A program made the translations under genes and the position numbers. Positions 2,420 through 34,202 of a stretch of 64,000 bases of DNA are shown here, one piece after another; the stretch's first letter is position 1; each line of letters starts with the position of its first letter. The notes under the pieces are model-generated. The model did not search any database, had not been told where the DNA came from, and saw only the letters and a program-made list of their open reading frames with translations. The stretch lies in assembly GCF_003115775.1 (NCBI RefSeq), contig NZ_QEES01000002.1:1426001-1490000 (forward strand). The letters run 5' to 3'. This DNA is from Cellulomonas sp. WB94 (lineage in GTDB: Bacteria > Actinomycetota > Actinomycetes > Actinomycetales > Cellulomonadaceae).

Positions 2420-2475
2420 GGTGACGTCCCGCTGAGTGGTGGAGTTTCTCGACACCGTGCGGGTCAGTGCTCAGA

Positions 2476-3045
2476 TCATGCCGTGAGGAGTTCGGTGTGG
2501 TCCACCTCCTGGGTCGTCAGGGTCATGGTGGCGAGTTGGGCCATGGAGTTCTCGGATAGGTAGCGGCGGTCGGTGGCGGCCCATTCGTCGTGGGCCTCGA
2601 CCAGGACGGCGCCGGCCAGGCGCAGCAGGGCGGCGGGGTTGGGGAAGACCCCCACGACGTCGGTGCGGCGTTTGACCTCCTTGTTCAGTCGTTCCAGGGG
2701 GTTGGTCGACCAGATCTTCTTCCAGTGGCTGGCGGGGAACGCGGTGAAGGCGAGCAGGTCCTCGCGGGCGTCGGTGAGCATGTGCCCGACCTTCGGGTGG
2801 GAGCGGGTCAGCATGGTCGCGATGACTTCGAACTGCTCGGCGACGTGGGCGGCGTCGGGTTGGGCGAAGATCGTGCGGATCGCGGCGGCGACCATCTCGG
2901 CGTTCGTCTTGGACACCGCGTCGAGGACGTTGCGGGTGAAGTGGACCCGGCAGCGTTGCCAGGACGAGCCGAGCAGGACCGAGGCGATCGCGGTCTTCAG
3001 GCCCTCGTGGGCGTCGGAGATGACCAGCGCCACACCGCCCAGCCC
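2476..3045 (-). pseudogene. 3' half of the disrupted outer IS256 transposase
   Basis: This encodes the C-terminal part of the transposase, from LGGVALVISDAHEGLK to the end, and is identical in protein sequence to the same part of the intact copy. It keeps the second catalytic Asp (ISDAHEG) and the Glu motif WSTNPLERLNKEVKRR, but its N-terminal half lies 1.4 kb away at 4457-5127. Translation would only restart inside the inner element's end, so no functional enzyme is expected. Confidence 0.85.
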
Positions 3046-3101
3046 GGTGACGTCCCGCTGAGTGGTGGAGTTTCTCGACACCGTGCGGGTCAGTGCTCAG
3101 A

Positions 3102-4334
3102 TCATGCCGTGAGGAGTTCGGTGTGGTCCACCTCCTGGGTCGTCAGGGTCATGGTGGCGAGTTGGGCCATGGAGTTCTCGGATAGGTAGCGGCGGTCGGT
3201 GGCGGCCCATTCGTCGTGGGCCTCGACCAGGACGGCGCCGGCCAGGCGCAGCAGGGCGGCGGGGTTGGGGAAGACCCCCACGACGTCGGTGCGGCGTTTG
3301 ACCTCCTTGTTCAGTCGTTCCAGGGGGTTGGTCGACCAGATCTTCTTCCAGTGGCTGGCGGGGAACGCGGTGAAGGCGAGCAGGTCCTCGCGGGCGTCGG
3401 TGAGCATGTGCCCGACCTTCGGGTGGGAGCGGGTCAGCATGGTCGCGATGACTTCGAACTGCTCGGCGACGTGGGCGGCGTCGGGTTGGGCGAAGATCGT
3501 GCGGATCGCGGCGGCGACCATCTCGGCGTTCGTCTTGGACACCGCGTCGAGGACGTTGCGGGTGAAGTGGACCCGGCAGCGTTGCCAGGACGAGCCGAGC
3601 AGGACCGAGGCGATCGCGGTCTTCAGGCCCTCGTGGGCGTCGGAGATGACCAGCGCCACACCGCCCAGCCCGCGGGCCTTGAGCGAGCGCAGGAAGCTGG
3701 TCCAGAAGGCGCCGTTCTCGGAGTCTCCGACGTCGAAGCCGAGGACCTCACGGTGCCCGTCGGCGCGGACCCCGGTGGCGATGACCACGGCCTGGGACAC
3801 CACCCGGCGCCCGACCCTGGCCTTGCAGTACGTCGCGTCCAGGAACACGTAGGGGAACCCCGCGTCGGCCAGGGACCGGTCACGGAACGCCGAGACCTCC
3901 TCGTCCAGGCCCGCGCAGATCCGGGAGACCTCACTCTTGGAGATCCCGGTGTCGGCCCCCAGGGCCCTGACCAGGTCGTCGACCTTCCTGGTGCTGACCC
4001 CGTGCAGGTAGGCCTCCATCACGACCGCGAACAGTGCCTGGTCGACCCGGCGGCGCCGCTCGAGCAAGGACGGGAAGAACGACCCGGTGCGCAGCTTGGG
4101 GATCCGCAGGTCCAGGTCCCCGGCCGTGGTCGTCAACACCCGGTCCCGCGACCCGTTGCGCAACGCCGTGCGGGCCTGCGTGCGCTGCCAGGGGCCGGCG
4201 CCGATCACCGCGGTCGCCTCGGCGTCGATCAGCTCTTGATACAGGTGCTCGGTCGCGGTCCGGATCCGGTCGCTGACGTCGGTGTCCTTCAATGCGGCGA
4301 GCAGGTCGAGCAGGGCAGACTGGTCCATAGCCAT
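3102..4334 (-). CDS. IS256 family transposase (intact copy)
   Basis: A 410-residue mutator-type DDE transposase. Visible motifs are VFLDATYCKAR (first Asp), LVISDAHEGLK (second Asp) and WSTNPLERLNKEVKRR (Glu, with the K/R-rich helix typical of IS256). The N-terminal 'RNGSRDRVLTTTAGDLDLRIPKLRTGSF' region (in pieces RNGSRDR and IPKLRTGSFFPS) is the family's usual DNA-binding part. The start ATG at 4334 follows a GGAAGGA ribosome-binding site and lies inside an inverted repeat (see 4330-4392). It is full length and in frame, and is probably what mobilised the nested pair. Confidence 0.95.
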   Translation of the reverse strand: MAMDQSALLDLLAALKDTDVSDRIRTATEHLYQELIDAEATAVIGAGPWQRTQARTALRNGSRDRVLTTTAGDLDLRIPKLRTGSFFPSLLERRRRVDQALFAVVMEAYLHGVSTRKVDDLVRALGADTGISKSEVSRICAGLDEEVSAFRDRSLADAGFPYVFLDATYCKARVGRRVVSQAVVIATGVRADGHREVLGFDVGDSENGAFWTSFLRSLKARGLGGVALVISDAHEGLKTAIASVLLGSSWQRCRVHFTRNVLDAVSKTNAEMVAAAIRTIFAQPDAAHVAEQFEVIATMLTRSHPKVGHMLTDAREDLLAFTAFPASHWKKIWSTNPLERLNKEVKRRTDVVGVFPNPAALLRLAGAVLVEAHDEWAATDRRYLSENSMAQLATMTLTTQEVDHTELLTA

Positions 4335-4392
4335 CGTGCGATGTCCTTCCGTGAGTTCCCTAGTCCGGTCTCACCGACCATCGCACGATGGC
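4330..4392 (-). promoter_or_regulatory. Inverted repeat that encloses the transposase ribosome-binding site and start codon
   Basis: The arms GCCATCGTGCGATG (4330-4343) and CATCGCACGATGGC (4379-4392) are perfectly complementary over 14 bp. The ATG of the transposase lies within the first arm and GGAAGGA just beyond it in the loop. A transcript entering from outside the IS would fold and hide the start, whereas one starting inside the loop would not. That is inference from the layout; such protection from impinging transcription is known for several IS families. The outer copy has the same structure at 5123-5185. Confidence 0.55.
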
Positions 4393-4456
4393 CTTCTCCG
4401 TCGTGGTCACCACGACGAAGAAGATCGAGAACTACACCACCTCACGGGACGCCACC

Positions 4457-5127
4457 GCCCAGCCGCGGGCCTTGAGCGAGCGCAGGAAGCTGGTCCAGAA
4501 GGCGCCGTTCTCGGAGTCTCCGACGTCGAAGCCGAGGACCTCACGGTGCCCGTCGGCGCGGACCCCGGTGGCGATGACCACGGCCTGGGACACCACCCGG
4601 CGCCCGACCCTGGCCTTGCAGTACGTCGCGTCCAGGAACACGTAGGGGAACCCCGCGTCGGCCAGGGACCGGTCACGGAACGCCGAGACCTCCTCGTCCA
4701 AGCCCGCGCAGATCCGGGAGACCTCACTCTTGGAGATCCCGGTGTCGGCCCCCAGGGCCCTGACCAGGTCGTCGACCTTCCTGGTGCTGACCCCGTGCAG
4801 GTAGGCCTCCATCACGACCGCGAACAGTGCCTGGTCGACCCGGCGGCGCCGCTCGAGCAAGGACGGGAAGAACGACCCGGTGCGCAGCTTGGGGATCCGC
4901 AGGTCCAGGTCCCCGGCCGTGGTCGTCAACACCCGGTCCCGCGACCCGTTGCGCAACGCCGTGCGGGCCTGCGTGCGCTGCCAGGGGCCGGCGCCGATCA
5001 CCGCGGTCGCCTCGGCGTCGATCAGCTCTTGATACAGGTGCTCGGTCGCGGTCCGGATCCGGTCGCTGACGTCGGTGTCCTTCAATGCGGCGAGCAGGTC
5101 GAGCAGGGCAGACTGGTCCATAGCCAT
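4457..5127 (-). pseudogene. 5' half of the disrupted outer IS256 transposase
   Basis: This encodes the N-terminal 220 or so residues (MAMDQSALLDLLAALK to SFLRSLKARG) and then runs into the end of the inner element as an unrelated tail. It retains the first catalytic Asp but not the second Asp or the Glu. The nucleotide sequence matches the intact copy apart from an occasional base (for example near 4701), which points to a very recent duplication. Confidence 0.85.
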
Positions 5128-5516: not shown

Positions 5517-5933
5517 CTACTCAGACTGCTTGCTGCCGAGGTCGAACCGCAGTTCTCGCAGGGTCTTGCCGGAGCGCTGATGTGTCCAGTTCGCCCACCC
5601 GTCGATCTGCGATCCCACAAGCCGCGACAGCGCCGCGGAAGGAGCCTGGTAGAGAGTCCCCTCGGACAGGATCCACCCGGACTCCACCACCTTGGCCTCA
5701 AACCGGTCGCCCTTGCGCGGGCGCTCGTGGAAGATGACATCGCCGTCATGGACGAGGCCGGCTGCCATGAGGGGTAGCAGTCTGCCAACCACGACGGGCT
5801 TGAGACGTGGCCTAGCCCTCCCGGTGTGGTCGATGAGTAGCAGACGGCGGAGGACGTCGTTCGGTTGCTCGAAGCCCTTGGCGTGCTTCTCTAGCTCCGC
5901 GTAAACCTCGTCGTCGATCTCGATGCGCCTCAT
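5517..5933 (-). CDS. RAMA-domain protein with a SeqA-like N-terminus
   Basis: A 138-residue protein. Residues 1 to about 35 (MRRIEIDDEVYAELEKHAK, then NDVLRRLL) look like a ribbon-helix-helix or SeqA N-terminal dimerisation segment. Residues about 50-135 match the RAMA domain pattern: LPLMAAGLVHDGDVIF, FEAKVVESGWILSEGTLY, QAPSAALSRLVGSQIDGWANW, and a final LRELR. RAMA (restriction enzyme and adenine methylase associated) domains occur fused to or beside DNA methylases and in defence islands, and are predicted to read modified DNA. No methylase lies next to it here. It is transcribed towards the broken HNLRSALD gene, 235 bp away. The molecular role is inferred from the domain only. Confidence 0.8.
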   Translation of the reverse strand: MRRIEIDDEVYAELEKHAKGFEQPNDVLRRLLLIDHTGRARPRLKPVVVGRLLPLMAAGLVHDGDVIFHERPRKGDRFEAKVVESGWILSEGTLYQAPSAALSRLVGSQIDGWANWTHQRSGKTLRELRFDLGSKQSE

Positions 5934-6495
5934 GTCGGCAACCCCGCTCTCTGCTCTTCTATCTGGTCCAGTCTGGCAGATCTCAGATTACGCAGAGGAC
6001 GCGTCTCCTGGCAAGCGCCCACGCCGGGCGGTCAACCCGAGATCGGGCCACGGCGACCAGCGAAAGCACCAGCGCTCGCGCAGGCCGATAGAGGGCCTGG
6101 GAGGACACACCCGCGACGCCACCACCAGGTCGTCCGTGACCTCCGGCCGTCCCCATCCGCGCAGGGAGGAGATCGTCAACCTGTCGGAGTGGACGTCGGG
6201 CACCCGAGAGCGGCGCAGTCGACAGCGCACGCAGTCGGCCGCACTCGCTGCATTCAGGGCTTGTTCGTCGATTGCGACCCGCAGATGTTCGACGCGACGG
6301 CGCCTTGAAAGCGATACGCAGCGTAAAGGAATTCCGGGGCTCGCACGTCGGCCAGAGGAAGCCCGCACTGACGCTCACGTGTTGAACTGTGACGTGCATC
6401 GTTCCGGGGTCTATCGCCACCGACGCCCATTACAGGCGCAGCGGGATGGCACGGGTGCGATGGAGTCTAGCTCCGAGCCTGTTAGCGTCGCTGTC
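5934..6495. other. Intergenic stretch between divergent genes, no gene seen
   Basis: About 560 bp separate the RAMA gene (-) and the DUF4062-like gene (+). Frames here are open by GC bias but read as low-complexity Arg/Ser/Pro protein on both strands, with no recognisable motif. Promoters for both neighbours should lie here; I could not identify convincing -35/-10 boxes. Confidence 0.4.
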
Positions 6496-7347
6496 ATGAC
6501 ATTCACGGCATTGGTGGTTCGAGTGTTGATCGCGTCGCCCGGCGATGTCGCTCTTGAGCGAGAGGTGATCTCAGAGACGATCGATGACTGGAACGCGGCA
6601 CGAGCGGTGGCAAGCGAAGTCGTGTTGATGCCCATCCGTTGGGAGACCCACGTAGTGCCAGAACTCGGCGTCGACGCGCAGATGGTCGTAAACACGCAGA
6701 TTGGCGACGGCAGCGACATCGTGATCGCTGTCTTCAGTTCGCGCGTCGGAACTGCGACGCCGCGAGCCGTGTCGGGAACGGTCGAGGAGGTCGATCGGGC
6801 GGTAGCGGACGGCCGAACCGTCCACGTCTGGTTCTCTCGCGCCCCCATCCCACACGACGCCGACCTCGAGCAAGTCGCAAAGGTTCGCGAGCTACCGCAA
6901 AGGTGGACGGGCCTGTTTGGTCACTACGCCGACCTAGCAGATCTGCGGTACCAGGTGAGACGCGCACTGGACCGGGACGTCGACAAGCTCGCCGCGGCCG
7001 ACAAGGTCGACCTCGTGCGCGTGTTCGAGGAAGGACTCAATGTGCGTCCTGCGCCAGCACCCGGCGCGAGACTACGTGCATCAGCAGCACGCGTGGCTGG
7101 TGGGGAGTACGTCATTGAAGTCGCGAATAGCGGCGTGGCGCCCGCCGAGGACCTGTCAGTCGTCCTGGTCGGTCAGAGCGGCGGAGAGCTCGCGCTCAAT
7201 GGCCCTCAGCACTTCGATCTGCTTGACGGGTCATCCGCGACGTGGCACGTATGGCTCAGCCTGGCCGACTCCATACCCGCCACGGTCAGGATGACCTGGC
7301 TCGAAGCGGGTTTCGCCCGATCGCTCGAGCAGACGGTGTCGACATAG
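6496..7347 (+). CDS. DUF4062-like protein with a C-terminal beta-sandwich-like segment
   Basis: The ATG at 6496 is preferred because the DUF4062-like domain begins directly after it (MTFTALVVRVLIASPGDV); the longer frame upstream is compositionally unlike protein. Residues 1 to about 130 follow the DUF4062 plan: SPGDVALEREV, IRWETHVVPELGVDAQ, DIVIAVFSSRVGTATP, SGTVEEVDRAVADGR. This alpha/beta fold, distantly like nucleoside deoxyribosyltransferases and TIR domains, is often found at the N-terminus of NTPase or effector proteins in defence islands. Residues from about 185 (YVIEVANSGVAPAEDLSVVL) look like a CARDB-type beta sandwich. There is no NTPase domain. Total 283 residues. The function is unknown; a sensor or effector role is only a guess. 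Confidence 0.72.
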   Translation: MTFTALVVRVLIASPGDVALEREVISETIDDWNAARAVASEVVLMPIRWETHVVPELGVDAQMVVNTQIGDGSDIVIAVFSSRVGTATPRAVSGTVEEVDRAVADGRTVHVWFSRAPIPHDADLEQVAKVRELPQRWTGLFGHYADLADLRYQVRRALDRDVDKLAAADKVDLVRVFEEGLNVRPAPAPGARLRASAARVAGGEYVIEVANSGVAPAEDLSVVLVGQSGGELALNGPQHFDLLDGSSATWHVWLSLADSIPATVRMTWLEAGFARSLEQTVST

Positions 7348-7526: not shown

Positions 7527-8810
7527 TCACTCACCGCCCGGAAGACCCGCGATCGCAACGGACAGGGCCGCACGGATGGGGGCTTCCTGCTCAACGGGGA
7601 ACCCGCGCTCGGCGACCGCCAGCGCGAAAGCGGTCAGATGCGCGGCGTGCGGGCCGTGTGCAGCTCCTCCGATCCGGTTGAGTTCATCCAGACTCGCGAC
7701 TGAGAAGGCAGTGGTCGGCGCACTTGTGCCGACTCCGACGTCGACCAGATGGACGATGGAACTGGCCGGGAGCGCCGTCAGGAGCCGGTCAGCGATCCGA
7801 ACCCCGCCGAGATCTGCGTCCGGGGTGACGATTATCGGGCCGTTCGTCTGGGTCGCGGCCATGACGCACACAGCCAGCACGGCGTCGGCGGGCTGCCCGG
7901 CGAACCACACGACCGCGATGTTCGGGAACGCGTCACAGGCAGTCTCGGCGGCTTGCAGGTTCTCGACCAACAGAACGGCCCTGGCCCGCTCGTGGACCTG
8001 CACGATCAGGGGATCCTGCTGCGTGGCACGAAGGCGGACCGGTCCGGCGAACGCGGCTCCGATCGGAAGCCCGTTGACATCGATCGCGCCGCCGAGCCCG
8101 ACGTAGGGCGAACGCGCGAGCCCGAGGTCGCGCAGGGTGCGTTCGCTGACGCCTGCACGCCGCAGCAAGTCTGGTGCGTCGTCGCGTGCCTTGGTGTGCC
8201 CGAAATGGGTCTGGGAGAACGCGCGAGGTCCGTCATGGCTCACGCCGGTGAGGAGATCGCTCGCTGCCGCGACGGCGATGGCGAGCAACGGGGAGTGCGG
8301 CGGGGTGCTGAGAAGGACGTCCGCGAGGTCGTGATGCTCGACCTCGAGCGCACCGGCCAGCTGCGATGCTCGCTCTCGCAGGTCGTCGTGGCGCGCTCCA
8401 CGCTCACGAGTCCGCTGCGCCCCTTCGTTGGCCGGCCCGGGGGTCAGCGTCCATTTCTGCACGGCGTCCCAGACGAAGGTGGGCCCTGTCGGGTGCACCC
8501 GGACCGTCACGACGCCTGCGGCGACTAGGTCCAACGTCAGCCCCGCTGCCTGATCCCCGAAGCGTTCCACGACTGATCTCCACCGGCGTGTGCCAGCTGC
8601 GAGCATCCATGCCCAGTCGGCGTCGCTCACTCCCCCTGGTCGCTCCCAGGCGTCGTGTTCGGTCGCGGCGACCAGGTCGACGCGGTTCGACTTGACCCGT
8701 CCGGCCCGGTCCCGCGGAGCTGACCCGCCGTCGGGGCCGGGCCTTGGGACGATGAAGGCGCGGACGTCGCTGCGCGGCTCGAGCCACGTTGCCCGGATCG
8801 GTGTGGTCAT
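7527..8810 (-). CDS. jetD: JetD/MksG-like Toprim nuclease subunit of a Wadjet-like SMC system
   Basis: A 427-residue protein, last gene of the operon, starting at the ATG that overlaps the stop of the SMC-like gene by 4 bp. The C-terminal half holds a Toprim-like core: the Glu motif AVLLVENLQAAET at about residue 283 and the acidic motif PIIVTPDADLGGVRIADRL at about 329, where DxDxGG should bind metal. In Wadjet and MksBEFG systems JetD/MksG is the topoisomerase-VI-like nuclease that cuts circular DNA after the SMC motor has extruded it. Its N-terminal half (WAWMLAAGTRRWRSVVERFG) resembles no domain I can name but fits the arm or winged-helix region. The call rests on the Toprim motifs plus operon context; a typing search was not possible. 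Confidence 0.72.
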   Translation of the reverse strand: MTTPIRATWLEPRSDVRAFIVPRPGPDGGSAPRDRAGRVKSNRVDLVAATEHDAWERPGGVSDADWAWMLAAGTRRWRSVVERFGDQAAGLTLDLVAAGVVTVRVHPTGPTFVWDAVQKWTLTPGPANEGAQRTRERGARHDDLRERASQLAGALEVEHHDLADVLLSTPPHSPLLAIAVAAASDLLTGVSHDGPRAFSQTHFGHTKARDDAPDLLRRAGVSERTLRDLGLARSPYVGLGGAIDVNGLPIGAAFAGPVRLRATQQDPLIVQVHERARAVLLVENLQAAETACDAFPNIAVVWFAGQPADAVLAVCVMAATQTNGPIIVTPDADLGGVRIADRLLTALPASSIVHLVDVGVGTSAPTTAFSVASLDELNRIGGAAHGPHAAHLTAFALAVAERGFPVEQEAPIRAALSVAIAGLPGGE

Positions 8811-11800
8811 GCCAGCGGACGCCCGGCCTGCATGTACGGGGCGGCGAGGCGGGCATGCGCGCTGTCCTTGTCGAAGTCCCACATCTGGACCGGTCGGTTG
8901 AGCACGTCAGTGGCCGAGGCGTGCGTGAACCACAGCAGCTGCTTGGACGCGATGACGGCGTCCTTGAGCACGGAGTCCTGGCAGGTGCCGAGGATGGTGA
9001 TGTGTTGCGACTCCGATACCGAGCGCAGTGCTTCCAGCACGTCGTTGCGGTTCATGTCGCCCAAGGAGTTGCCGAGCTCGTCGATGATGACGACCTGTCC
9101 GCCGCCGTCGCCGGGATTCGCTCGCAGGGCCGCCAGGGCGATCAGGATCGCGTGCACCTTGATCTGGGCGCCGTTGCTGACCTTCTTGTACGAAACGAAC
9201 GCACGGCCAGGGCTGCGACGCCACCTGGGGACCACCTCGAACTGCCACGGTCTCGTCGCAGTGACGGGGCGCCGGGTCACGACATCCAAGGTCGCGCCAA
9301 AACCCTTGGCTGTGATGTCGAGCTCGTTGAACGCCACCTTCATGCGCTCGAAGTGCGTGTTTACGAGACCTTCCACCATGCTTTGGAACGCGTCGAGCGA
9401 TGACCGGCCGTCCTCGACCTCGCGGCGTTGCGCGTCAAGGGTGACCTGGCGTCGCAAGCGGTCAGCCTGGATCCGTTCCCCGTTGATCGCATCTCGGTCT
9501 GCGGCGCCGTCGAGCCGGTCTCGCAGAGGTCGTGCCATGTCCCGGAACGAGGGGGGGCGCGATCCGGCTGCGCCGTCGTCGTCGAGGAGCTGGCCGCGTG
9601 CGCTGTTGATCGCGGTGATGTCGGCGGGGACGTCGACGAGCTTGCCGACGTACGCCGCGACGGCGGCCAGCAACGCTTCGGAGGCGCGGCCTCGGTACCG
9701 CACGACCGCGAGGGGGCGTTCAGGCTGGGCGTCGATGAACTCGCGCGCCTCATCGAGGGCGCCGCCCCATCCGGCCGTCCAGTACGGCAGTCGGGCGTTC
9801 TCGACGCGTTGCTGCGCCGCGCGAACTGTCGGTTCGACCTTGCCGATGTCCTCAAGTGTCCGCCTCCACGTGCTTTCGGCCGCCGAGACCATTGCTCCGT
9901 GGTTCGTCGCCAACGCCCGTGCGGAGTCGTACTCCGTGACACGTATGTCCTCGACCTCGTCCAATGCCACCTTCTCCTGGGTGAGGGTCGCCAGGTCGAG
10001 GTTGCGGGCGTCGATGCGAGCCGAGTGCGCGGTGCGTTCCTGCTCCGCTGCCGCTCCCTTGCTGCGCGCCTCGGCCAGTTCGACACGACCGGCGGCACGC
10101 TCGACGGCATCGTGCGCCGCCGCCAGCTTGACCTTCGCTTCCATGAGGGCGAGTTCGGCGGCCTGCACACGACCGGCTCGCCCGGTCGTCGGGTTGGGCG
10201 CTCCGGAGATCGTGATGATGCCGAGCGCGACATCAATTACACCGTCGGGGTTCTGGGTCGGGGAGTGGCGACTAGCAAGCGCCGCAAGGAACCGCCCGAT
10301 CGGTTCACTGCTCGTGACCCCGGAAGGCAGCGATTCCGTGCCCCCTGCGGTGACGATCGTGGTGCCGGGCAGGTGAGCCGCGGCACGCACCGCAGCGTCA
10401 GCATCATCATCCTGCGCGACCACAGCGTGGCTCCACGGTGTCAGGGCCGCTTCCCAGAACGGGCGAGCCTGCTCGTCGAGCGTGATGACGTCCAGCAGGC
10501 CGACCGTCTGCACACCAGCGGACCGGAGTGCTTCCAGCGCGGGCGCGGTCGCGGGCGAGGCACCCGATCGTGCTGAGCGCAACGTCGCGTCTGCATCGGC
10601 ATGGTCGCGCTCGGCCAGGAGAAGCCCGGCGTCGGCGGCCGCCTTCGCTGTTGCTGCGCCGTCAACAACTGCCTGCGCCTCGGCGGGAGTGCTCGTGCCG
10701 TCCCACCCCTGCAGTGCGTCCCGCAAGTCGGCGATCTGGGTGCGCCGCGACTTGATCTCGGCGCGCACGTCCGCGATCTCGGACTGCTTGCCTTCAGCCG
10801 CAGCGCGGGCATCATCGGCAACCTGCTTGGCCCGGTCGCGCGCGTCGGCCAGGTCACGCCTGTCGCGTAGCGCTTCCCACGTGCGCTTCTCCACGTCACC
10901 ACGGCGACGGATCGTGGCCAGCATCGTCGTCGCGTCTGCGAGCGCCGCGGTCGCGTCGGCGTGGTCGACGTTGGCTTCCAGGAGACCCTTGGCCCAGTGC
11001 AGCCGCCATGCGAGCTCGCCGGCCGCCAGTTGTGTGCGCGCCTCATCGCGGCCGTGGATCGACTCCAGCTCGCTCTCCTCGATGCCGCGCATCGCCGTGT
11101 CGGCGGCGGCGTCCTGAGCCATGCCCTCTTCGGCGTCGGCGAGCTTGCTGCGCTGCTCTTGCTCCTGGTCGAGCATTGATGTCATGCCGGACAGGTCGAT
11201 CAGGGAGGCGCCGATCTCAGCGGGAGTCATCTGCGTCATCTGCTGGGAGAGCAACGACGGGCCGGTCTGACGCATCGCGGTGTCCAGGTACGACACGCAC
11301 CTTGGGGCCTCGCCGTAGAGGCGCTCGGCGTACACGTGCGCTGACATCTCAGACTTGGATCCCAGCCTGTCCCACAGGACATCTGCTTCGCGGGCGCGAT
11401 CGTCGTGCCGGTCGGCGGTCGCCAGGACGATGCCCGTGGAGGTGCGGACCCGCAGGTACGGCGAGGTGGTGGACAGCCGCACCCAGACGGTGATGCACGC
11501 GTCCGGGCTAGGGGCGTTGCGGGGCGCGAACGTTCCGACGACGTACCCGTGCAGGGCGTTGGACTGAGTGCCGCCGTCGGCACCGGCGGCTTCGGCCTCG
11601 AACAGCAGGCCGCCGGCCGCGTTCTTGCCGTGGTTGGCGCGCATGTTCCACAGGGGGTCGCCCAGCAGGACTGAGCAGGCGGCCTGGAACGACGTCTTGC
11701 CCGACCCGTTCGAGTCGCCCTTCGGTCCCTCGCCGGACACGACGACGAACGCCCCGGCGACCAAGTAGGCGACGTGGTTCGTCTGGCGGGCGATGTCGAA

Positions 11801-11890
11801 CGTCTGGATCATCGTCAAGACTCGGGAGCCGACGATGCCCGTCTTGGACAGGGTGGCCGTCGCCGCGGTCTCGGAGGCGGTCACGGTCAT
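8807..11890 (-). CDS. jetC: JetC/MksB-like SMC ATPase
   Basis: A 1027-residue SMC-like ATPase, the motor of the system. The Walker A motif GPKGDSNGSGKTS lies at residues 55-67, followed by LLGDPLWNMR. A long central region (about 270-480 and 600-700) is rich in Ala, Glu, Arg and Leu heptads, as in antiparallel coiled coils, with a hinge-like insertion near VQTVGLLDVITLDEQARPFW. The C-terminal head has a signature-like KKVSNGAQIKVHAILIAL and a Walker B VVIIDELGNSLGDMNRND at about 928-945. Wadjet JetC uses this head to extrude DNA loops on plasmids. It overlaps both neighbours by 4 bp, implying stoichiometric co-translation. At 1027 residues it is slightly short for the class but complete. Confidence 0.82.
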   Translation of the reverse strand: MTVTASETAATATLSKTGIVGSRVLTMIQTFDIARQTNHVAYLVAGAFVVVSGEGPKGDSNGSGKTSFQAACSVLLGDPLWNMRANHGKNAAGGLLFEAEAAGADGGTQSNALHGYVVGTFAPRNAPSPDACITVWVRLSTTSPYLRVRTSTGIVLATADRHDDRAREADVLWDRLGSKSEMSAHVYAERLYGEAPRCVSYLDTAMRQTGPSLLSQQMTQMTPAEIGASLIDLSGMTSMLDQEQEQRSKLADAEEGMAQDAAADTAMRGIEESELESIHGRDEARTQLAAGELAWRLHWAKGLLEANVDHADATAALADATTMLATIRRRGDVEKRTWEALRDRRDLADARDRAKQVADDARAAAEGKQSEIADVRAEIKSRRTQIADLRDALQGWDGTSTPAEAQAVVDGAATAKAAADAGLLLAERDHADADATLRSARSGASPATAPALEALRSAGVQTVGLLDVITLDEQARPFWEAALTPWSHAVVAQDDDADAAVRAAAHLPGTTIVTAGGTESLPSGVTSSEPIGRFLAALASRHSPTQNPDGVIDVALGIITISGAPNPTTGRAGRVQAAELALMEAKVKLAAAHDAVERAAGRVELAEARSKGAAAEQERTAHSARIDARNLDLATLTQEKVALDEVEDIRVTEYDSARALATNHGAMVSAAESTWRRTLEDIGKVEPTVRAAQQRVENARLPYWTAGWGGALDEAREFIDAQPERPLAVVRYRGRASEALLAAVAAYVGKLVDVPADITAINSARGQLLDDDGAAGSRPPSFRDMARPLRDRLDGAADRDAINGERIQADRLRRQVTLDAQRREVEDGRSSLDAFQSMVEGLVNTHFERMKVAFNELDITAKGFGATLDVVTRRPVTATRPWQFEVVPRWRRSPGRAFVSYKKVSNGAQIKVHAILIALAALRANPGDGGGQVVIIDELGNSLGDMNRNDVLEALRSVSESQHITILGTCQDSVLKDAVIASKQLLWFTHASATDVLNRPVQMWDFDKDSAHARLAAPYMQAGRPLA

Positions 11891-12510
11891 GACGGTGTTC
11901 CTTCGCGGGTACGGCGACGCTGAATGGACTCGGCGAGCATCCCGTTCGGTTCGGCGAGGAGCACGAGGTCGTCGTACAGGTCGGCGATCACTTCGGGGGT
12001 CAGGCGGTGGAACTGCGGTCCGGGCTTGATCAGCCGTTGTGCGCCGTACGCGAGGATGTCGGCGTCTCGCAGGCGACGGGTCGCGTCAGCGATGGAGCTG
12101 TCGGTCAGGTGCCGGCAGTTGCGCAGCGTCTCGGGGTGGACGGGCACGGCGTGTGTCCAGTCGTCGGCGCGCTCGGGTGGGATGCGCCCGTCGGCGCGCG
12201 GGATCGCCACACAGTGCAGGAGCACGAGGGTCAGGACGGCGCGCTCTTCGGCGGACAGGACCCCGATGCCGTCGGCAGTCAGGGCTCGCCGCACGTCGTT
12301 GTCGTAGCCGGAGGTGAAGCCACTGGGTGTCTCGATGAGTGTGCGTCCCTCCGCCCGCAGGAGCTCCTTGACCCCGGCGCGCAGGGTTGCGTCTCCGAGA
12401 GCACGGAAGGTCGACCTTGGCAGCGGCAGCTGTGCTTCGTCCACGGCGCGGGTCGCGGACATGATGTCGAGCTGGTCGCGGGCGGTGTACTGCTCGAGGG
12501 TGACGCTCAT
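11887..12510 (-). CDS. jetB: KITE-like (JetB/MksE) subunit, copy 2
   Basis: A 207-residue protein starting MSVTLEQYTARDQLD. Its C-terminus has the winged-helix and 'GP.F.RL' ending typical of MukE/MksE/JetB KITE proteins: RRLRDADILAYGAQRLIKPG followed by PQFHRLTPEVIADLYDDLVL. KITE proteins bind the kleisin and the SMC heads and touch DNA. It directly precedes the SMC-like gene with a 4-bp overlap, the usual jetB position. The gene immediately upstream (12507-13070) looks like a second KITE protein, which is unusual. Confidence 0.68.
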   Translation of the reverse strand: MSVTLEQYTARDQLDIMSATRAVDEAQLPLPRSTFRALGDATLRAGVKELLRAEGRTLIETPSGFTSGYDNDVRRALTADGIGVLSAEERAVLTLVLLHCVAIPRADGRIPPERADDWTHAVPVHPETLRNCRHLTDSSIADATRRLRDADILAYGAQRLIKPGPQFHRLTPEVIADLYDDLVLLAEPNGMLAESIQRRRTREGTPS

Positions 12511-13070
12511 GCGATGTCCGCGGCGGCGGGGATGCGGTCCCATGCCTGACGGAGCACGTTCAGGTCGTGCTCCGACCAGGATCCGAGGGCGTGGCCGAGT
12601 CGGATCTGGTCGTCGTCCTGGACGAGGAACCCGGCGTGGGCGAGGGTGCGCACCGAGCCGACGACATGCCGGGTCGCACCGATCGCCGAGGAAGCTGACG
12701 CGTCGGAGGCGGCACGCAGGTAGGTAGCGAGGTCGATGACGACGTTGTACGGCACCGACTTGCCGGGGAGCATGGGGGTGTCGGGGTCGTCCCAGCACAG
12801 CCGCAAGCACGCCGCGAGTGTCGTCTGCAGCCGGTCAGCTGCTGGTCCTTTCCCGCGCGCTGCCCCGAGCTCCGGCGCTTCCCAGAGGCCGTCGGTGTTC
12901 GGGTCGTGGGTCACGGTGATGCCGTCGGTGACCGTTACGACCCGCATGCGGGCGCCGGCGGCGGCGTCTTGCAGGGCGATGTAGTCCTTGCTGGTCGCTG
13001 GCGGCGGGGCCACTCCGAGGGCGCGGATCGCTGCGACGATCTGCGGGCCCGGACGGGTGTAGACGCTCAT
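12507..13070 (-). CDS. Second small winged-helix (KITE-like) subunit
   Basis: A 187-residue protein (MSVYTRPGPQIVAAIRALGV). Its C-terminal third (RHVVGSVRTLAHAGFLVQDD, then IRLGHALGSWSEHDLNVLR) reads as a winged helix with a 'hairpin then igLg' wing, as in KITE subunits. It sits between the kleisin-like and the jetB-like genes, overlapping each by 4 bp. Canonical Wadjet operons have one jetB. If this is a second KITE the complex could carry a heterodimeric KITE pair, as MukE and Nse1/Nse3 work in pairs. The fold is inferred from pattern only. Confidence 0.6.
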   Translation of the reverse strand: MSVYTRPGPQIVAAIRALGVAPPPATSKDYIALQDAAAGARMRVVTVTDGITVTHDPNTDGLWEAPELGAARGKGPAADRLQTTLAACLRLCWDDPDTPMLPGKSVPYNVVIDLATYLRAASDASASSAIGATRHVVGSVRTLAHAGFLVQDDDQIRLGHALGSWSEHDLNVLRQAWDRIPAAADIA

Positions 13071-14338
13071 GACAGCACTGCCCGCACGGCGAGGCCGTCT
13101 ACGTCGGGTTCGACGGGCGCGCCGGGCGCGCCGGCGACGGTGACTCGCGTGAGCGTGATCGGCGAGATGTGGGTGACGGGGCCGCCCGGGTCGACGATCA
13201 GCGCGTCCGACACGATGGCTTCGTATGGCTGGTCGCGCATCGAGAGCACCTCGGCGACCATCCGGCCGGCGGCGGGCCATCCAGCGGCGCGGAGCCGCGA
13301 GGTCAGGTCGACCTGCTGTTCACCGTTCAGGTGCTGCTCCATGGCGAGCTCCACCATGCGTTTGTCCTTCGCTTCGCGTTCAGCGGCGGCGATCACAGGG
13401 TTGACCCGGTCGGCCGGTTCGCTGTCGCCAGGCTCTGGTGGCCGACGACGGGCCTGGCGCGGTTTGGCGTGATCGACGGCTTCCACGACCGTCTCGGCGG
13501 TGATCAGGGGGTGTGGTGGGTCGAACAGGACCGCAGCGAACGGGGCCGCGAGTGCTGCCTTCGTCGAGTGCAGCGCGGCGTTCAGGTACTGGTCAGGGTC
13601 CAGCATGGTGAAGTCGCGGTGGGCGTGGCCCTCTTGCGCGATCCGGTCCCAGTACAAGGTCACAGCGTGCTGATAGCGGCCCACCGAGTCCACGAGCCTG
13701 GTTGCCGGCCCATGCAGGTCGGGGTACTTGTCGATCACGGCGTCGACGAGGTGCTTGGCGTTGTCGATCGCGCGGGCGTTGCGGTGATGACGTCGCTGGG
13801 CGATCAGGTCCGCGAACGTGGCCGTCTCGACGAGGGCGGTCAGGTGCTGAGCGAAGACGAAGAACGATGCTCGACCCTTGCCGAGCGCCGTGGCGACCTG
13901 CTCCCGTGTCGCCTCGTTGTTCCGTAGCGCCTCGGTGGTCGCGTCGAGCATGAGCAGCAGGTCTTGGACTCCACCTTCGCGCGACACCCGGTCCACGACG
14001 GCCATTCCAGCGACGGAGTTAGGAGACAGGGTGTACCGCTGCTGGTGTGCTTTGGATCGCTTCTGGATCAGCATGCCGAGCTTGACGTACACCTCGAACC
14101 GGGACTCGAACAGCGCCGGTGCGCAGATGCCTGTGCACGCGTCGGCAAGCTCGGCGCGTCCGAGCGGCAGGCCGTCGGCGGCATCGAACGCGTCGAGTAT
14201 TGCGTATGCGATCTCGAGGTCGGCCATGTCGTCGATGACCGCGCCGGCGTCTGACGCGAGAGGGGCGACAAACGCGCGCAACGTCGACCGCTGGGCGCTT
14301 TCCGCCGCCTGCTCCGAACTCAGGTCCAGAAGACTCAT
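13067..14338 (-). CDS. jetA: JetA/MksF-like kleisin subunit
   Basis: A 423-residue protein, first of the five SMC-system genes. The ATG at 14338 is chosen because it overlaps the preceding stop (ATGA). The N-terminal 130 residues look like a winged helix (RFEVYVKLGMLIQKRSKAHQ, YTLSPNSVAGM), followed by long helices (FVFAQHLTALVETATFADLI, KHLVDAVIDKYPDL), a Pro/Arg-rich linker near residue 330 and a C-terminal small domain. That order matches kleisins of the DUF3375/JetA class, which bridge the SMC heads and bind KITE proteins. No catalytic motif is seen. The assignment rests mainly on position and helix layout. Confidence 0.62.
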   Translation of the reverse strand: MSLLDLSSEQAAESAQRSTLRAFVAPLASDAGAVIDDMADLEIAYAILDAFDAADGLPLGRAELADACTGICAPALFESRFEVYVKLGMLIQKRSKAHQQRYTLSPNSVAGMAVVDRVSREGGVQDLLLMLDATTEALRNNEATREQVATALGKGRASFFVFAQHLTALVETATFADLIAQRRHHRNARAIDNAKHLVDAVIDKYPDLHGPATRLVDSVGRYQHAVTLYWDRIAQEGHAHRDFTMLDPDQYLNAALHSTKAALAAPFAAVLFDPPHPLITAETVVEAVDHAKPRQARRRPPEPGDSEPADRVNPVIAAAEREAKDKRMVELAMEQHLNGEQQVDLTSRLRAAGWPAAGRMVAEVLSMRDQPYEAIVSDALIVDPGGPVTHISPITLTRVTVAGAPGAPVEPDVDGLAVRAVLS

Positions 14339-14628
14339 GCGTGCCGTCCCGCTCGTCGTGGCCGTCGTGGCCGTCGAACGCAACGTAGCGACCAACACTG
14401 ACACCGAGGCTCAAAGGCGCTCTTGAACCGCTGGGCTGCCGGCATGGCGATCTGGGCCCGACTGTCAGGCCGCCTCAAGGGGCCCACCAGTCCGTCCTGC
14501 GCCGGCTCGGGCACGATCCGGGTCACGGGGCGCCCGTCCCTGGTCAACTGGACGATCGCGCCGGCCTCCACGAGGCGGACGACCTGGGCGGTGTGGCGGC
14601 GGAACACGCCGATTTCGACCTGCAACAT
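14335..14628 (-). CDS. Phd/YefM-like antitoxin-type protein, orphan
   Basis: The core reads QVVRLVEAGAIVQLTRDGRP followed by VTRIVP, the Phd/YefM signature that neutralises Doc or RelE-type toxins and represses its own operon. The Arg-rich tail is not part of the family. The stop overlaps the jetA-like start (ATGA). The start is uncertain: an ATG at 14685 in the same frame would overlap the upstream gene, and GGAGG lies only one base from the ATG at 14628, so TTG at 14625 is also possible. No toxin gene adjoins it. Confidence 0.6.
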   Translation of the reverse strand: MLQVEIGVFRRHTAQVVRLVEAGAIVQLTRDGRPVTRIVPEPAQDGLVGPLRRPDSRAQIAMPAAQRFKSAFEPRCQCWSLRCVRRPRRPRRAGRHA

Positions 14629-14677
14629 CCCTCCAGTGATCCGCCGCGGGTCGCTCCTTGCGTTCCCGACCGCCGAG

Positions 14678-15139
14678 TCACCCATCGGCGTCTCGAGCGA
14701 AGCGGCGCCGGATCTCCTGCTCGGGCCTCTCCAGCACAATCGCGATCATTGACCACGTGTCGCCCGCGCGGCGGGCCTGCCTGATAGCCCGCACCAGGGC
14801 GGCGCCTGCCTCTTCGTACGCTGCTTGAGCGGCGCTGATAGCTCGGAGGTGCAGCCCGTCACGCCATGCGGACCTCGCCGGGGCGGCGTCTGCCACGGCC
14901 AGCACCCACTGCGGGGTGGCCCTGCCCAGGCGGCGATCAGTGACGATCTGGCCGCGCGCTGCGTTGACCTGCGCGCGCGTGACCTGCACCTGGCGACGGA
15001 CGACCCTGTCGACAGAGCGGGCGGCGGCCGCCGGTGCGGATGCGGCTTGCCGGGTCGCACCCCGCACCACTCGACGCCATTGCCACGAGCCGCGAGGTGC
15101 GACGGCCAAGTGCGTTGCGTTCGCCATGCGCTTGGTCAC
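14678..15139 (-). CDS. Conserved small protein with a C-terminal HTH-like segment
   Basis: A 153-residue basic, Ala/Arg-rich protein. The last 45 residues (VRAIRQARRAGDTWSMIAIV, then EQEIRRRF) resemble the recognition-helix region of a sigma-region-4 or helix-turn-helix protein; the middle looks like a long helix (AQVNAARGQIV). The start overlaps the upstream stop by 4 bp. Nothing else is recognisable. A small DNA-binding protein of the operon is possible. Confidence 0.55.
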   Translation of the reverse strand: MTKRMANATHLAVAPRGSWQWRRVVRGATRQAASAPAAAARSVDRVVRRQVQVTRAQVNAARGQIVTDRRLGRATPQWVLAVADAAPARSAWRDGLHLRAISAAQAAYEEAGAALVRAIRQARRAGDTWSMIAIVLERPEQEIRRRFARDADG

Positions 15140-19233: not shown

Positions 19234-20163
19234 GTGTCACCGGGCATCGCGGGACCGCCAGTCCTCCCGCGCGCGCTGGAACACCTGATGGGCTTGGCTA
19301 GGGCCCTCGCCAGCCCCACCGGCGCACAGGACGGCCTGCGCACCTGGGTGACGGTGCCCACCTCCCGCCTCGCGATTGGCGCGAGCATCCTTGGGGCACT
19401 GTCCGCGACGACGCGCTGCGACGGGTGCTTCCACGCAGACCTGCACGCCGGGGACCGCGTGGCGGTCTACGTCGATTCCAAGTTCCAGGACACCGAACTC
19501 TCCGAGATCACTAGAGAGGGCCAGTTCCGCTATGCCGGCGTCCGCATTCCCTGCCAGAGAGCGTCCGTGTACCGGCTGCCAGTGGAGTTCCCTGCAGATC
19601 GCCACGCCGGACTGTTAAGCGCCGAGGACAAGCTTCTGCTCGCGGACGCGTACCAGTGCGTGCCTGACCTCGCCGGGCACCGGCACTTGCACGCATCCGG
19701 TCACCCGGTGCTTGTCGTCGGGCACCCCGAACGCACGCGGGACGACTTGCGGGCCTGGACGCCGCTGGCAGCTCAGCGCAGCCAGGTCCGCCGCGCCGCA
19801 GCCACCGACATTGACGACTGGTATCGCTCGGCGGTCCTGACGACCGGGACGTCCCCGACCTTGACTCGCCGCCCCTGGCTCACCCAAGTGCGGCCTCGAC
19901 TCGTCATCACAACCACGACGTCCGCTGCGCTGGCGCCCACCCCATGGCCGGACGTTCCCGTCCTCGCCCTGCTGTCTCGGCGGTCCCCGTCGTCGGTGCA
20001 CGCCGCCGACCTGGCCCATCAGATGCGCACCACCCCAGTGACCGTCGACGGACGCCTCGGCCTTGCGCTGCGCCCTGGGCATGGGCTCGAGATCTTCGCC
20101 GCGTACGTCCCCTGCGACCTGCCGATGCCCGTGGATGACGACGACCTCGAGGAGCAGTGGTGA
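19234..20163 (+). CDS. Unknown protein, first gene of the DrmAB-like operon
   Basis: 309 residues from GTG 19234 (GAGGA six bases upstream). RLAIGASILGALSATTRCDG, then DLHAGDRVAVYVDSKFQDTE and FRYAGVRIPC, reads like a small beta-barrel 'hold and bind' domain near the N-terminus. This resembles what I recall of the N-terminal part of DISARM DrmE, but I cannot verify it. The rest has alpha/beta segments (PRLVITTTTSAALA, VPVLALLSRRSP). It overlaps the next gene by 4 bp. An accessory subunit of the helicase system is the simplest reading. Confidence 0.6.
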   Translation: MSPGIAGPPVLPRALEHLMGLARALASPTGAQDGLRTWVTVPTSRLAIGASILGALSATTRCDGCFHADLHAGDRVAVYVDSKFQDTELSEITREGQFRYAGVRIPCQRASVYRLPVEFPADRHAGLLSAEDKLLLADAYQCVPDLAGHRHLHASGHPVLVVGHPERTRDDLRAWTPLAAQRSQVRRAAATDIDDWYRSAVLTTGTSPTLTRRPWLTQVRPRLVITTTTSAALAPTPWPDVPVLALLSRRSPSSVHAADLAHQMRTTPVTVDGRLGLALRPGHGLEIFAAYVPCDLPMPVDDDDLEEQW

Positions 20164-21737
20164 GCGACCTCGACGTGTGGCAGGTGGCTGCCGAACCAGA
20201 CATCGACGTCCACCGGGTGCCGTGGCCAGAACTGGGCGACCTGACGCGCGCTGTCCGCGCGCTCCGGGACGACACCACACCCGTCGCCGGACGCGTCACG
20301 AGCGCAGTGTGGGCGGCCCGGCGCATCCTGACCTCGACGCCGCTCCCCCCATCTCACACAGCCGTCGGTGTGGCCTCGCTCGTCGACGAGCTGCGCACGT
20401 TCCTCGTCGAACACCCAGCGCACACCGATGCCCCCGCCCTCGCGGCCGTGCGCGACGCCGCCGACGCTCTGCTCGCTTCCCCGTCACCGATCAACGCCTG
20501 GGTCGGGGACGTCCTGAGCGAGTACGGCGCCCAACGCGACGGACAACCAGAAGCAGTCCTGGTCGTGCCGCGCGCCGTGCTCGCCGAACCCGTGCGTGCA
20601 TGGCTGGCAGATGACGGGTTCACCTGCCTGGACATCGCCACACCGGCCGACCTTCGCCGAGGGCGGTTGCACAAGGCAGCACTCGTTCTCGGGCACCCCG
20701 CCGTGACGTACGCGACACCGTTCTCCCCGCCGCAGACCGCCGAGCGCGAAGTGGGCTGGTTGCTGACCAGTCCGCCCGCGCACCGAGTGCGGCTCGCACT
20801 GCTCGACGACGACCCCGCGCTGAAGGCCGACGAACTCTGGGTCTGGCCCGACGCAGTCGCGCACCCGCGATTGCGGCTGACCGTCCCCGACCGGACGCCT
20901 GCGACCGTCACCCGGATTGAGTGGTTCACGCCCGCGCCCGTCCCCGCCGGCACGGCCGCTCGACCCTCCGACCACGTCGACGACCCCGTGGACGCCACCG
21001 CGGTCGTCACGGCGTCCGGGCACACGGTGTACTTCTCTCCAGCGACCGGACCGCGACCGGCCGTCCTCGGGCTGGAAGACACCGGCGACGTGACGATCAG
21101 TCGGGTGCCCATCACCCAGCTCACAGTCGGACGCGTCCTGGTCGAGCACACCAGCAACGCAGCCCGCGACGAGCTCCTCGCACGCGCGAACCAGTGGCTC
21201 CTGAGCTCTCGCCGCTGGACCCAGGCTCGCATCGACGCCACTCGCACTGCGTCGCTGAACCTGAAGTTCGCACTGATGTGGGCGCTGAGCGAACGGGGGG
21301 AGGACGGCGTAGTTGACGCGCTGCGCAAGCGGGGCCTGGACCGTCCGTACGCCCGCCGGTTGACCGACCACGTCCTCGACCCCGACTACATCGCCCCGTT
21401 CACGAAGGGGTTCACTCCTCTGGTCAACGTGCTGGCGGAAACCCCATTCTCCGACACGGACTTCATCGGCCCGATCCGCGCGGCCGCACACGACCTGCCC
21501 ACCCTGCGCGCCGCACATCAGCACGCCGGTGAGCTCATCCACGTCGACCTGCGGCAACGGCTACGCGGACGCGCCTGGGAAGACGAGCTGACCACCACCG
21601 GGTACGCGCTCGTGCACGACGACACGCTCGGGGACGTGCTGCTGACCACCGTCCTGGTCGTCGACGGCACGCACCCAGTGCCGCGAGCGTGGCTTGGTAC
21701 CCCGCAACCCGCACACGACCGCCAGGAGCAGCAATGA
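20160..21737 (+). CDS. Unknown protein, second gene of the DrmAB-like operon
   Basis: 525 residues from GTG 20160 (GTGA overlap). EAVLVVPRAVLAEPVRAWLA followed by KAALVLGHPAVTYATPFSPP resembles one Rossmann-like lobe without a visible Walker motif. The C-terminal 200 residues are helical (WALSERGEDGVVDALRKRGL) with a final 'LGDVLLTTVLVVDG'. Together with the preceding gene it may correspond to a split DrmE-like protein of class 2 DISARM; this is a hypothesis from operon position and faint similarity, not a recognised family. Confidence 0.58.
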   Translation: MSDLDVWQVAAEPDIDVHRVPWPELGDLTRAVRALRDDTTPVAGRVTSAVWAARRILTSTPLPPSHTAVGVASLVDELRTFLVEHPAHTDAPALAAVRDAADALLASPSPINAWVGDVLSEYGAQRDGQPEAVLVVPRAVLAEPVRAWLADDGFTCLDIATPADLRRGRLHKAALVLGHPAVTYATPFSPPQTAEREVGWLLTSPPAHRVRLALLDDDPALKADELWVWPDAVAHPRLRLTVPDRTPATVTRIEWFTPAPVPAGTAARPSDHVDDPVDATAVVTASGHTVYFSPATGPRPAVLGLEDTGDVTISRVPITQLTVGRVLVEHTSNAARDELLARANQWLLSSRRWTQARIDATRTASLNLKFALMWALSERGEDGVVDALRKRGLDRPYARRLTDHVLDPDYIAPFTKGFTPLVNVLAETPFSDTDFIGPIRAAAHDLPTLRAAHQHAGELIHVDLRQRLRGRAWEDELTTTGYALVHDDTLGDVLLTTVLVVDGTHPVPRAWLGTPQPAHDRQEQQ

Positions 21738-34079: not shown

Positions 34080-34120
34080 GTCCCGTCTACTGGGTCCCGG
34101 TTGTCCCGAGACCCCACTGT

Positions 34121-34202
34121 GCGCGAGGGGGGATTTGAACCCCCACGCCCTTTCGGACACTGGCACCTGAAGCCAGCGCGTCTGCCATTCCGCCACTCGC
34201 GC
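34121..34202 (-). tRNA. tRNA-Leu(CAG)
   Basis: Acceptor arms GCGCGAG and CTCGCGC pair; the anticodon stem CTGGC/GCCAG encloses loop TTCAGGT with anticodon CAG, reading CUG. A long variable arm and GGTTCAAATCC T-loop fit tRNA-Leu; CCA is not encoded. The 3' end faces the accessory island, a common integration site for mobile DNA, though no attachment-site duplication was found inside the window. Confidence 0.95.

Follow-up and report, generated by a model that had tools for sequence, protein, structure and literature searches.

A 64,000-nucleotide stretch of Cellulomonas sp. WB94 DNA (contig NZ_QEES01000002.1, positions 1,426,001 to 1,490,000; hereafter the window) carries on its minus strand a five-gene operon that is a real, conserved and apparently unlabelled Wadjet-like variant, of the Wadjet/Mks kind and not a new kind. 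In transcription order, it encodes a kleisin-like protein in the JetA/MksF position (13067..14338, 423 amino acids), which is the first operon gene in relatives too; two small proteins, small-1 or KITE1 (12507..13070, 187 amino acids, with an N-terminal part and one predicted winged helix) and small-2 or KITE2 (11887..12510, 207 amino acids, a predicted tandem winged helix); an SMC-like coiled-coil ABC ATPase in the JetC/MksB position (8807..11890, 1027 amino acids); and a Toprim nuclease resembling JetD/MksG (7527..8810). The longest JetD frame starts at 8882, and an in-frame ATG at 8810 gives a protein of 427 amino acids. With this ATG each gene overlaps the next by 4 bp (13067-13070, 12507-12510, 11887-11890 and 8807-8810), and the five overlapping frames reported in a preliminary description of the window were confirmed.

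That description had also named a Walker A motif GPKGDSNGSGKTS and a Walker B motif VVIIDELGNS in the SMC protein, both of which were found, and a Toprim motif DxDxGG, which is present in the window JetD as DADLGG; its proposal of a Toprim JetD in an operon arranged as in Wadjet or Mks is supported. In single-sequence scans of Pfam, PADLOC and NCBIfam, the window SMC gave weak ABC and coiled-coil matches, and JetD matched PADLOC JetD1 (E-value 1.5e-7) and scored 21.7 bits against Pfam DUF2399, just below the cut-off of 23.4. The same scans gave no convincing match for the kleisin-like protein, small-1 or small-2.

Conservation and fusion of the two small genes

Relatives of the SMC protein were found in 29 of 394 genomes of the class, including the window's own, in seven genomes besides its own among 248 of the order (27-32% identity, all of one family), and, within the window's family, in three genomes out of 221, the two besides its own being Antribacter gilvus and L192; this last search covered six further Cellulomonas genomes, with no SMC match in them. 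Carriage reached 14 of 22 genomes in the Jiangellaceae group and 48 of 120 in the Streptosporangiaceae group. Searches for relatives in viral contigs and phages gave nothing useful, and the plasmid search returned one match only, a chromosome-sized Nonomuraea replicon. PDB sequence profiles gave no useful match for any of the five proteins, KITE1 hitting only C/EBP coils (E-value 0.009).

A second complete five-gene operon with the same gene order lies in L192, from another genus of the window's family. The profiles that found it did not include L192 (E-values 2e-74 for the kleisin-like protein, 2.9e-29 for small-1, 1.4e-61 for small-2, 2.8e-250 for SMC and 8.8e-95 for JetD), which argues that the arrangement in the window is more than chance. 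Identities between the two operons are 43%, 37%, 54%, 45% and 46%, respectively.

Counts of loci refer to the best 80 of 180 relatives (L067-L146), obtained by scanning named genome contigs with the patterns MDEKAVK and QDDME[PR]Y; neither pattern occurs in the window SMC, which leaves forms of a similar degree of divergence under-sampled. In a six-frame search, with profiles partly built from the same loci, small-1 and small-2 were found together in 76 of the 80 loci, on the strand of SMC and in the order kleisin-small-1-small-2-SMC (in L092, one of the 76, the kleisin gene falls past the contig end). In three of the other four loci (L084, L104 and L140) the contig starts partway through the operon. 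The fourth, in Antribacter gilvus (L105, also L193), is a truncated operon that retains SMC and JetD; about 20 kb of sequence showed no kleisin gene and neither of the KITE genes. Loss of KITE1 was considered for six further loci (L068, L072, L073, L115, L118 and L145) and rejected, as an all-frame search of the strand found it in each.

The two small genes are naturally fused, small-1 first, in 33 of the 80 loci, all labelled Streptosporangiaceae, with fused frames of 364-726 amino acids; one fused chain is the state of the KITE pair in most Streptosporangiaceae relatives seen, and Nonomuraea gerenzanensis has the fusion as well. Bailinhaonella (L143), in which the genes are separate, is sister of the fused clade in a tree of 81 SMC sequences, which suggests that the fusion arose once. 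A frame of 730 amino acids in Fodinicola (L119) resembled a kleisin-KITE1-KITE2 triple fusion, but some of its parts are not read in frame and its SMC is broken in two; as a frameshift artefact it was excluded from the structure alignment and the fusion count, and the longer SMC piece was kept in the 81-row tree.

Nine hand-picked close pairs of relatives, the window itself being too diverged to enter, gave ratios of non-synonymous to synonymous substitution rates (dN/dS) of 0.06-0.30 for small-1 and 0.02-0.30 for small-2, indicating purifying selection, and dN of KITE1 was above that of KITE2 in eight of the nine pairs. The idea that small-1 is a chance frame or an optional insert was rejected in view of its presence in 76 of 80 loci, of purifying selection and of the fusions. 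The two distinct small genes between kleisin and SMC that the preliminary description had pointed to are real, conserved and non-identical winged helix-turn-helix proteins, and the outcome that would have spoken against its proposal, an optional unrelated gene, was not what the survey found. Of the five-gene order that it suggested surveying, kleisin-KITE1-KITE2-SMC is kept in those 76 loci, and JetD comes next in only 10 of the 80. Its remark that both small proteins begin with MSV describes no family feature in the alignments of their relatives.

Predicted folds and the KITE assignment

The folds of the small proteins were predicted from an alignment of 88 rows, made up of 30 of the 33 fusions, 56 relatives that are not fused and the two small proteins of the window; the separate rows align to the expected half of the fusion, except for the C-terminal tails of some small-1 rows. 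In the AlphaFold model of the Planobispora longispora fusion (m2ba401c01027; predicted local distance difference test score, pLDDT, 85.1), secondary structure shows a tandem winged helix in the small-2 half (residues 205-406, pLDDT mostly about 90 or more), and by this modelled fold small-2 is a KITE. The small-1 half has one clear winged helix (82-155), which follows a beta/helix part of mixed confidence (block means from 50 to 91). Hence the claim that both small proteins are winged-helix KITEs stands for small-2, but small-1 shows only a single confident winged helix in this homologue model.

In a Foldseek search of the PDB with the fusion model, the first-ranked match was 9qe0 chain D (E-value 1.6e-4, probability 0.99), a JetB of 389 residues from the type II Wadjet of Neobacillus vireti, as identified with a profile made from 18 type II JetB sequences of actinobacteria. 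It alone fell below an E-value of 0.001, and because the alignment runs over 390 columns with gaps, the match almost certainly spans both halves of the modelled fusion. Later matches, at E-values of 0.001-0.1, included ScpB, MukE, a type I JetB (8dk1 chain E) and Nse1-Nse3 entries. The view that a single KITE gene is established for these systems is therefore too narrow, type II Wadjet having a double-length JetB. Since this protein is the top match to the fusion, the presence of two genes plausibly reflects a double JetB that has been split and not a wholly new subunit, and KITE1 and KITE2 are probably an asymmetric KITE pair. The suggestion of an undescribed subtype with a heteromeric pair or a specialised second subunit survives as an apparently unlabelled variant, but one that plausibly derives from such a split.

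The model of the kleisin-like protein, built from the window protein and 42 relatives, has a pLDDT of 72; judged by secondary structure, it comprises a winged helix-turn-helix (38-104), helices (123-240) and a second part resembling a winged helix-turn-helix (314-398). Position in the operon and this predicted topology suggest that the product of 13067..14338 is a kleisin; that the KITEs would bind it is suggested by their place in the operon and by the fusion. In the SMC protein, Walker A and Walker B are intact in each of 14 representatives aligned, whether or not the locus has a JetD. Its N-terminal part matched a type II JetC profile with 94% probability over 290 columns, including coiled coil.

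Together, these data make it likely, in our judgement, that the five genes are a complete SMC nuclease operon of Wadjet-like type, with an asymmetric KITE1-KITE2 pair in the KITE position. A number of results weigh against this assignment. For the SMC protein, the canonical ABC signature is LSGGQ, and the corresponding region is far from it, being VSNGAQ for the window protein, AANGAQ for that of L192 and xNTAx for the remaining 12 representatives; the hinge-like middle segment was judged by eye only; and 8 of 13 SMC rows matched PADLOC LmuB of Lamassu and 8 of 13 mad8, with 3 of 13 matching JetC2 (best E-values 1.9e-6 for JetC2 and 6.5e-6 for LmuB). For the kleisin-like protein, winged-helix ends and a helical middle come in kleisin order, but no kleisin is among the 50 Foldseek matches listed for its model (best E-value 0.15), and neither sequence scans nor the PDB profile search returned a kleisin match. 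Kleisin, KITE1 and KITE2 have no convincing sequence match to JetA or JetB of any type, the best being to JetB1 in one of 31 KITE2 rows (E-value 0.072) and to JetA1 in one of 28 KITE1 rows (E-value 0.018). The structural comparison used a Planobispora homologue with 38% and 25% identity to the window proteins; unrelated winged-helix proteins (MarR, IscR, TFIIH p52 and Pol III subunits) were matched about as well, by E-value, as MukE and JetB; and with a predicted template-modelling score (pTM) of 0.54 and rank-1 TM-scores of 0.24-0.25, the packing of the fusion halves is not readable from the model. Moreover, KITE1 shows a single clear winged helix, and profile comparison of KITE1 with KITE2 gave a probability of 1.2%, that is, no demonstrable kinship.

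The Foldseek result, together with SMC and JetD profiles that both match type II at 94%, would also suit an ordinary diverged type II Wadjet with jetB split in two and otherwise unchanged. We consider this somewhat unlikely, given that JetA and JetB have no profile similarity to type II (fusion against type II JetB profiles: 3.6% probability, no connection), that the SMC has about 1030 amino acids versus about 1360-1460 in the type II loci compared, that JetD matches PADLOC JetD1, JetD2 and JetD3 alike, and that the split is common to all unfused loci examined and not confined to one locus. It is quite unlikely that KITE2 is the only true KITE and pairs with itself, the arrangement of type I Wadjet and MukBEF, with KITE1 as an accessory or DNA-binding subunit, for example a recognition or JetD-coupling factor. 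The N-terminal part of KITE1 without a winged helix, its higher dN and its lower conservation between the window and L192 (37% versus 54%) all favour such a role, but they are set against the natural 1:1 fusions and against a top structural match, the double-length type II JetB, that runs across nearly the whole fusion. KITE1 is also retained in loci without JetD, and hence would not be a JetD adaptor only.

JetD among the relatives and the genomic setting

Eleven members of the JetD family were compared, and matched DUF2399 (11/11), Toprim (8/11) and JetD_C (5/11), with an invariant Glu and DADLGG across all rows; against the type II JetD profile, the match covered 73 columns. JetD follows SMC directly in 10 of the 80 loci (seven Micromonosporaceae, two Pseudonocardiaceae and one Antribacter), which with the window and L192 makes 12 JetD-bearing loci. 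In the other 70, no JetD was found in the stretch around SMC, the contig ending less than 800 nt past SMC in L092 and L100. Among 347 genomes of the order, two gave a match to the JetD protein, the window's own and Kineosporia G065, and a JetD profile run on 18 genomes (17 SMC carriers and the window's own) matched in the window's own only. ScpA was present in all 18, and thus Smc-ScpAB exists beside this SMC system. The JetD-less loci have no common effector among the first two genes downstream of SMC, neighbours being common only within lineages.

On the 81-SMC tree the JetD label changes five times, compared with a mean of about 10.5 after shuffling and no value as low in 500 shuffles. Smaller JetD and SMC trees, unrooted and compared by eye, agree where resolved: the window groups with L192 in both, Antribacter groups with the two Pseudonocardiaceae in both (80/84 support in the JetD tree), and the Micromonosporaceae keep the same inner order. 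A Paractinoplanes pair without JetD is nested among the Micromonosporaceae JetD bearers, and Couchioplanes, also without JetD, is placed at the unresolved base of that group. The end branch of the window measures 9 in the 81-row SMC tree and 1.5 with L192 added and fewer rows. Because the trees agree where resolved, loss appears likelier than gain, and repeated loss of an ancestral JetD appears the simplest reading, although the trees are unrooted.

The reverse history, a chromosomal actinomycete condensin analogous to MksBEF whose nuclease-bearing copies captured JetD secondarily, could draw on the 70 of 80 loci without a JetD nearby, on the frequency of SMC in Jiangellaceae genomes (14/22) and on ScpA, hence Smc-ScpAB, in 18 of 18 genomes. 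It seems improbable to us, as the two trees, SMC and JetD, show the same branching from their deepest split (window and L192) towards the tips where resolved, and the nested Paractinoplanes pair fits loss better than repeated capture.

Several further observations were made in the relatives. Kineosporia G065 has a lone JetD (L194:6776-7909, minus strand, 39% identity to the window; a longer match contains one stop codon), and the SMC operon of this genome has no JetD. Five Actinomadura loci of the 80 (L069, L075, L104, L114 and L133) have a related protein of about 930-1130 amino acids after SMC on the same strand. A frame of 264 amino acids in genome G362 (L065:9366-10160) joins a C-terminal piece of SMC to a piece of JetD and looks like a remnant; it lies 8-9 kb from a DUF2398 (type II JetB) gene. 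The neighbourhoods of JetD-bearing relatives differ, except in Micromonospora MA102 (L074:1-7156) and Amycolatopsis (L094:1-7183), which have in common an upstream run of four genes of about 490, 440, 420-430 (SbcD-like) and 1000 (SbcC-like) amino acids, compared by eye from length and opening letters; perhaps this run is a cassette travelling with the operon.

From its start to a tRNA-Leu gene (34119-34202), the window has a G+C content of 0.66-0.71 per 2 kb, versus 0.72-0.73 in the next 12 kb; later parts also dip. Transposases, the DISARM pair DrmA/DrmB and an RmrA-like regulator lie in this stretch, which therefore looks like a defence-bearing island. DrmA (21734-25177, PADLOC E-value 8.8e-176) and DrmB (25183-26943, 3.8e-53) lie on the plus strand, with an unnamed frame of 526 amino acids (20157-21737) just before DrmA, and the regulator is a minus-strand protein with helix-turn-helix and IrrE/M78 peptidase parts (29061-30101) that matches PADLOC RmrA models. 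A Mutator-family transposase gene (3102-4328) sits within a segment (2420-5121) where exact 300-nt repeats common to this gene and the frames on both sides mark duplicated partial copies. Around the operon, a small minus-strand frame (14335-14739), Phd-type antitoxin-like by eye, ends in a 4-bp overlap with the kleisin start; a plus-strand frame adjoining the operon end (5923-7347) has a weak DUF4062 match below the cut-off (E-value 0.0021); and a small minus-strand frame (5517-5933) matches PADLOC PDC-S14 (E-value 1.6e-10).

Relation to known systems and proposed mechanism

Both the window and L192 carry a Wadjet A-B-C-D operon, with the KITE position doubled and a putative kleisin, and their JetD family has the DUF2399/JetD_C-Toprim composition, the Glu and the DxDxGG of Wadjet. 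In contrast to types I-III, JetA, JetB and JetC do not match models of one type, the sequence resemblance to Wadjet being clear for JetD and weak for the SMC. In place of one KITE gene the window has two, and 33 of the 80 relatives have the two joined in a single fused gene. Type II Wadjet (Neobacillus vireti, 9qe0) is alike in its kleisin-KITE-SMC-Toprim operon, in the double length at the KITE position and in the profile similarity of the SMC N-terminal part and the JetD Toprim; it is unlike in that here the KITE consists of two chains or a separate fusion, the SMC is about 350 residues shorter, kleisin and KITE are not alignable by sequence, and the ABC signature is atypical. A pseudo-dimeric KITE has reportedly been described in a 2025 paper in Structure on type II Wadjet.

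Type I Wadjet or MksBEFG has the same gene order and roles, and JetD matches JetD1 models; KITE2 is about the size of JetB/MksE, and the SMC is of moderate length as in type I. The differences are the two KITE genes here and the lack of any match of kleisin, KITE1 or KITE2 to type I models beyond marginal single ones. MksBEF is the nuclease-less chromosomal condensin with which the four-gene form, found here on chromosomes with ScpA, can be compared, whereas the heteromeric or fused KITE sets that form apart from MksBEF/MukBEF, and no sequence match was seen to MukB, MukE or MukF models or chains. The Smc5/6 complex, which is eukaryotic and without nuclease, likewise has two different KITEs, Nse1 and Nse3, weakly matched in Foldseek (7dg2, E-value 0.052; 5hvq, 0.12), but no sequence relation to KITE1 or KITE2 was seen.

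We found no earlier description of this system in the literature, most subscription papers and preprints being outside that search; the papers cited are PMC10586767, PMC12647877 and PMC10123090. Loci of this kind are probably unlabelled in defence surveys because Pfam, NCBIfam and PADLOC models do not convincingly name the kleisin or the KITEs.

By analogy, the system likely works like Wadjet. Two SMC proteins would assemble with the kleisin and the KITE pair into a motor that extrudes DNA loops; this motor would stall on a small circle, whereupon JetD would cut the circular DNA, so that the window system may cut plasmids. Complex formation, loop extrusion, cleavage and 1:1 pairing of the KITEs are each expected here on the Wadjet model: every motor would contain one KITE1 and one KITE2 and not two copies of one JetB, and the double-length JetB of type II Wadjet occupies the place of this pair. 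In most relatives examined JetD is missing, and the four-gene motor kept on the chromosome beside Smc-ScpAB would probably be non-cutting, like MksBEF-type condensins.

A broader reading, which we offer tentatively and with slightly more doubt than belief, is that these loci form a fourth class of Wadjet-like machine, defined by a KITE1-KITE2 heterodimer, whose nuclease-free descendants would be independent chromosomal loop extruders. The class would so far be found only in actinomycetes, its architecture would be a bacterial counterpart of Nse1-Nse3, and its descendants in several families would have moved from plasmid cutting to chromosome organisation or to non-cutting control of plasmids. 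As the same motor occurs with and without the nuclease in related genomes, and the trees agree where resolved, the family allows a direct study of how JetD is gained or lost, and a KITE pair that occurs in nature both unfused and fused offers a handle on KITE asymmetry.

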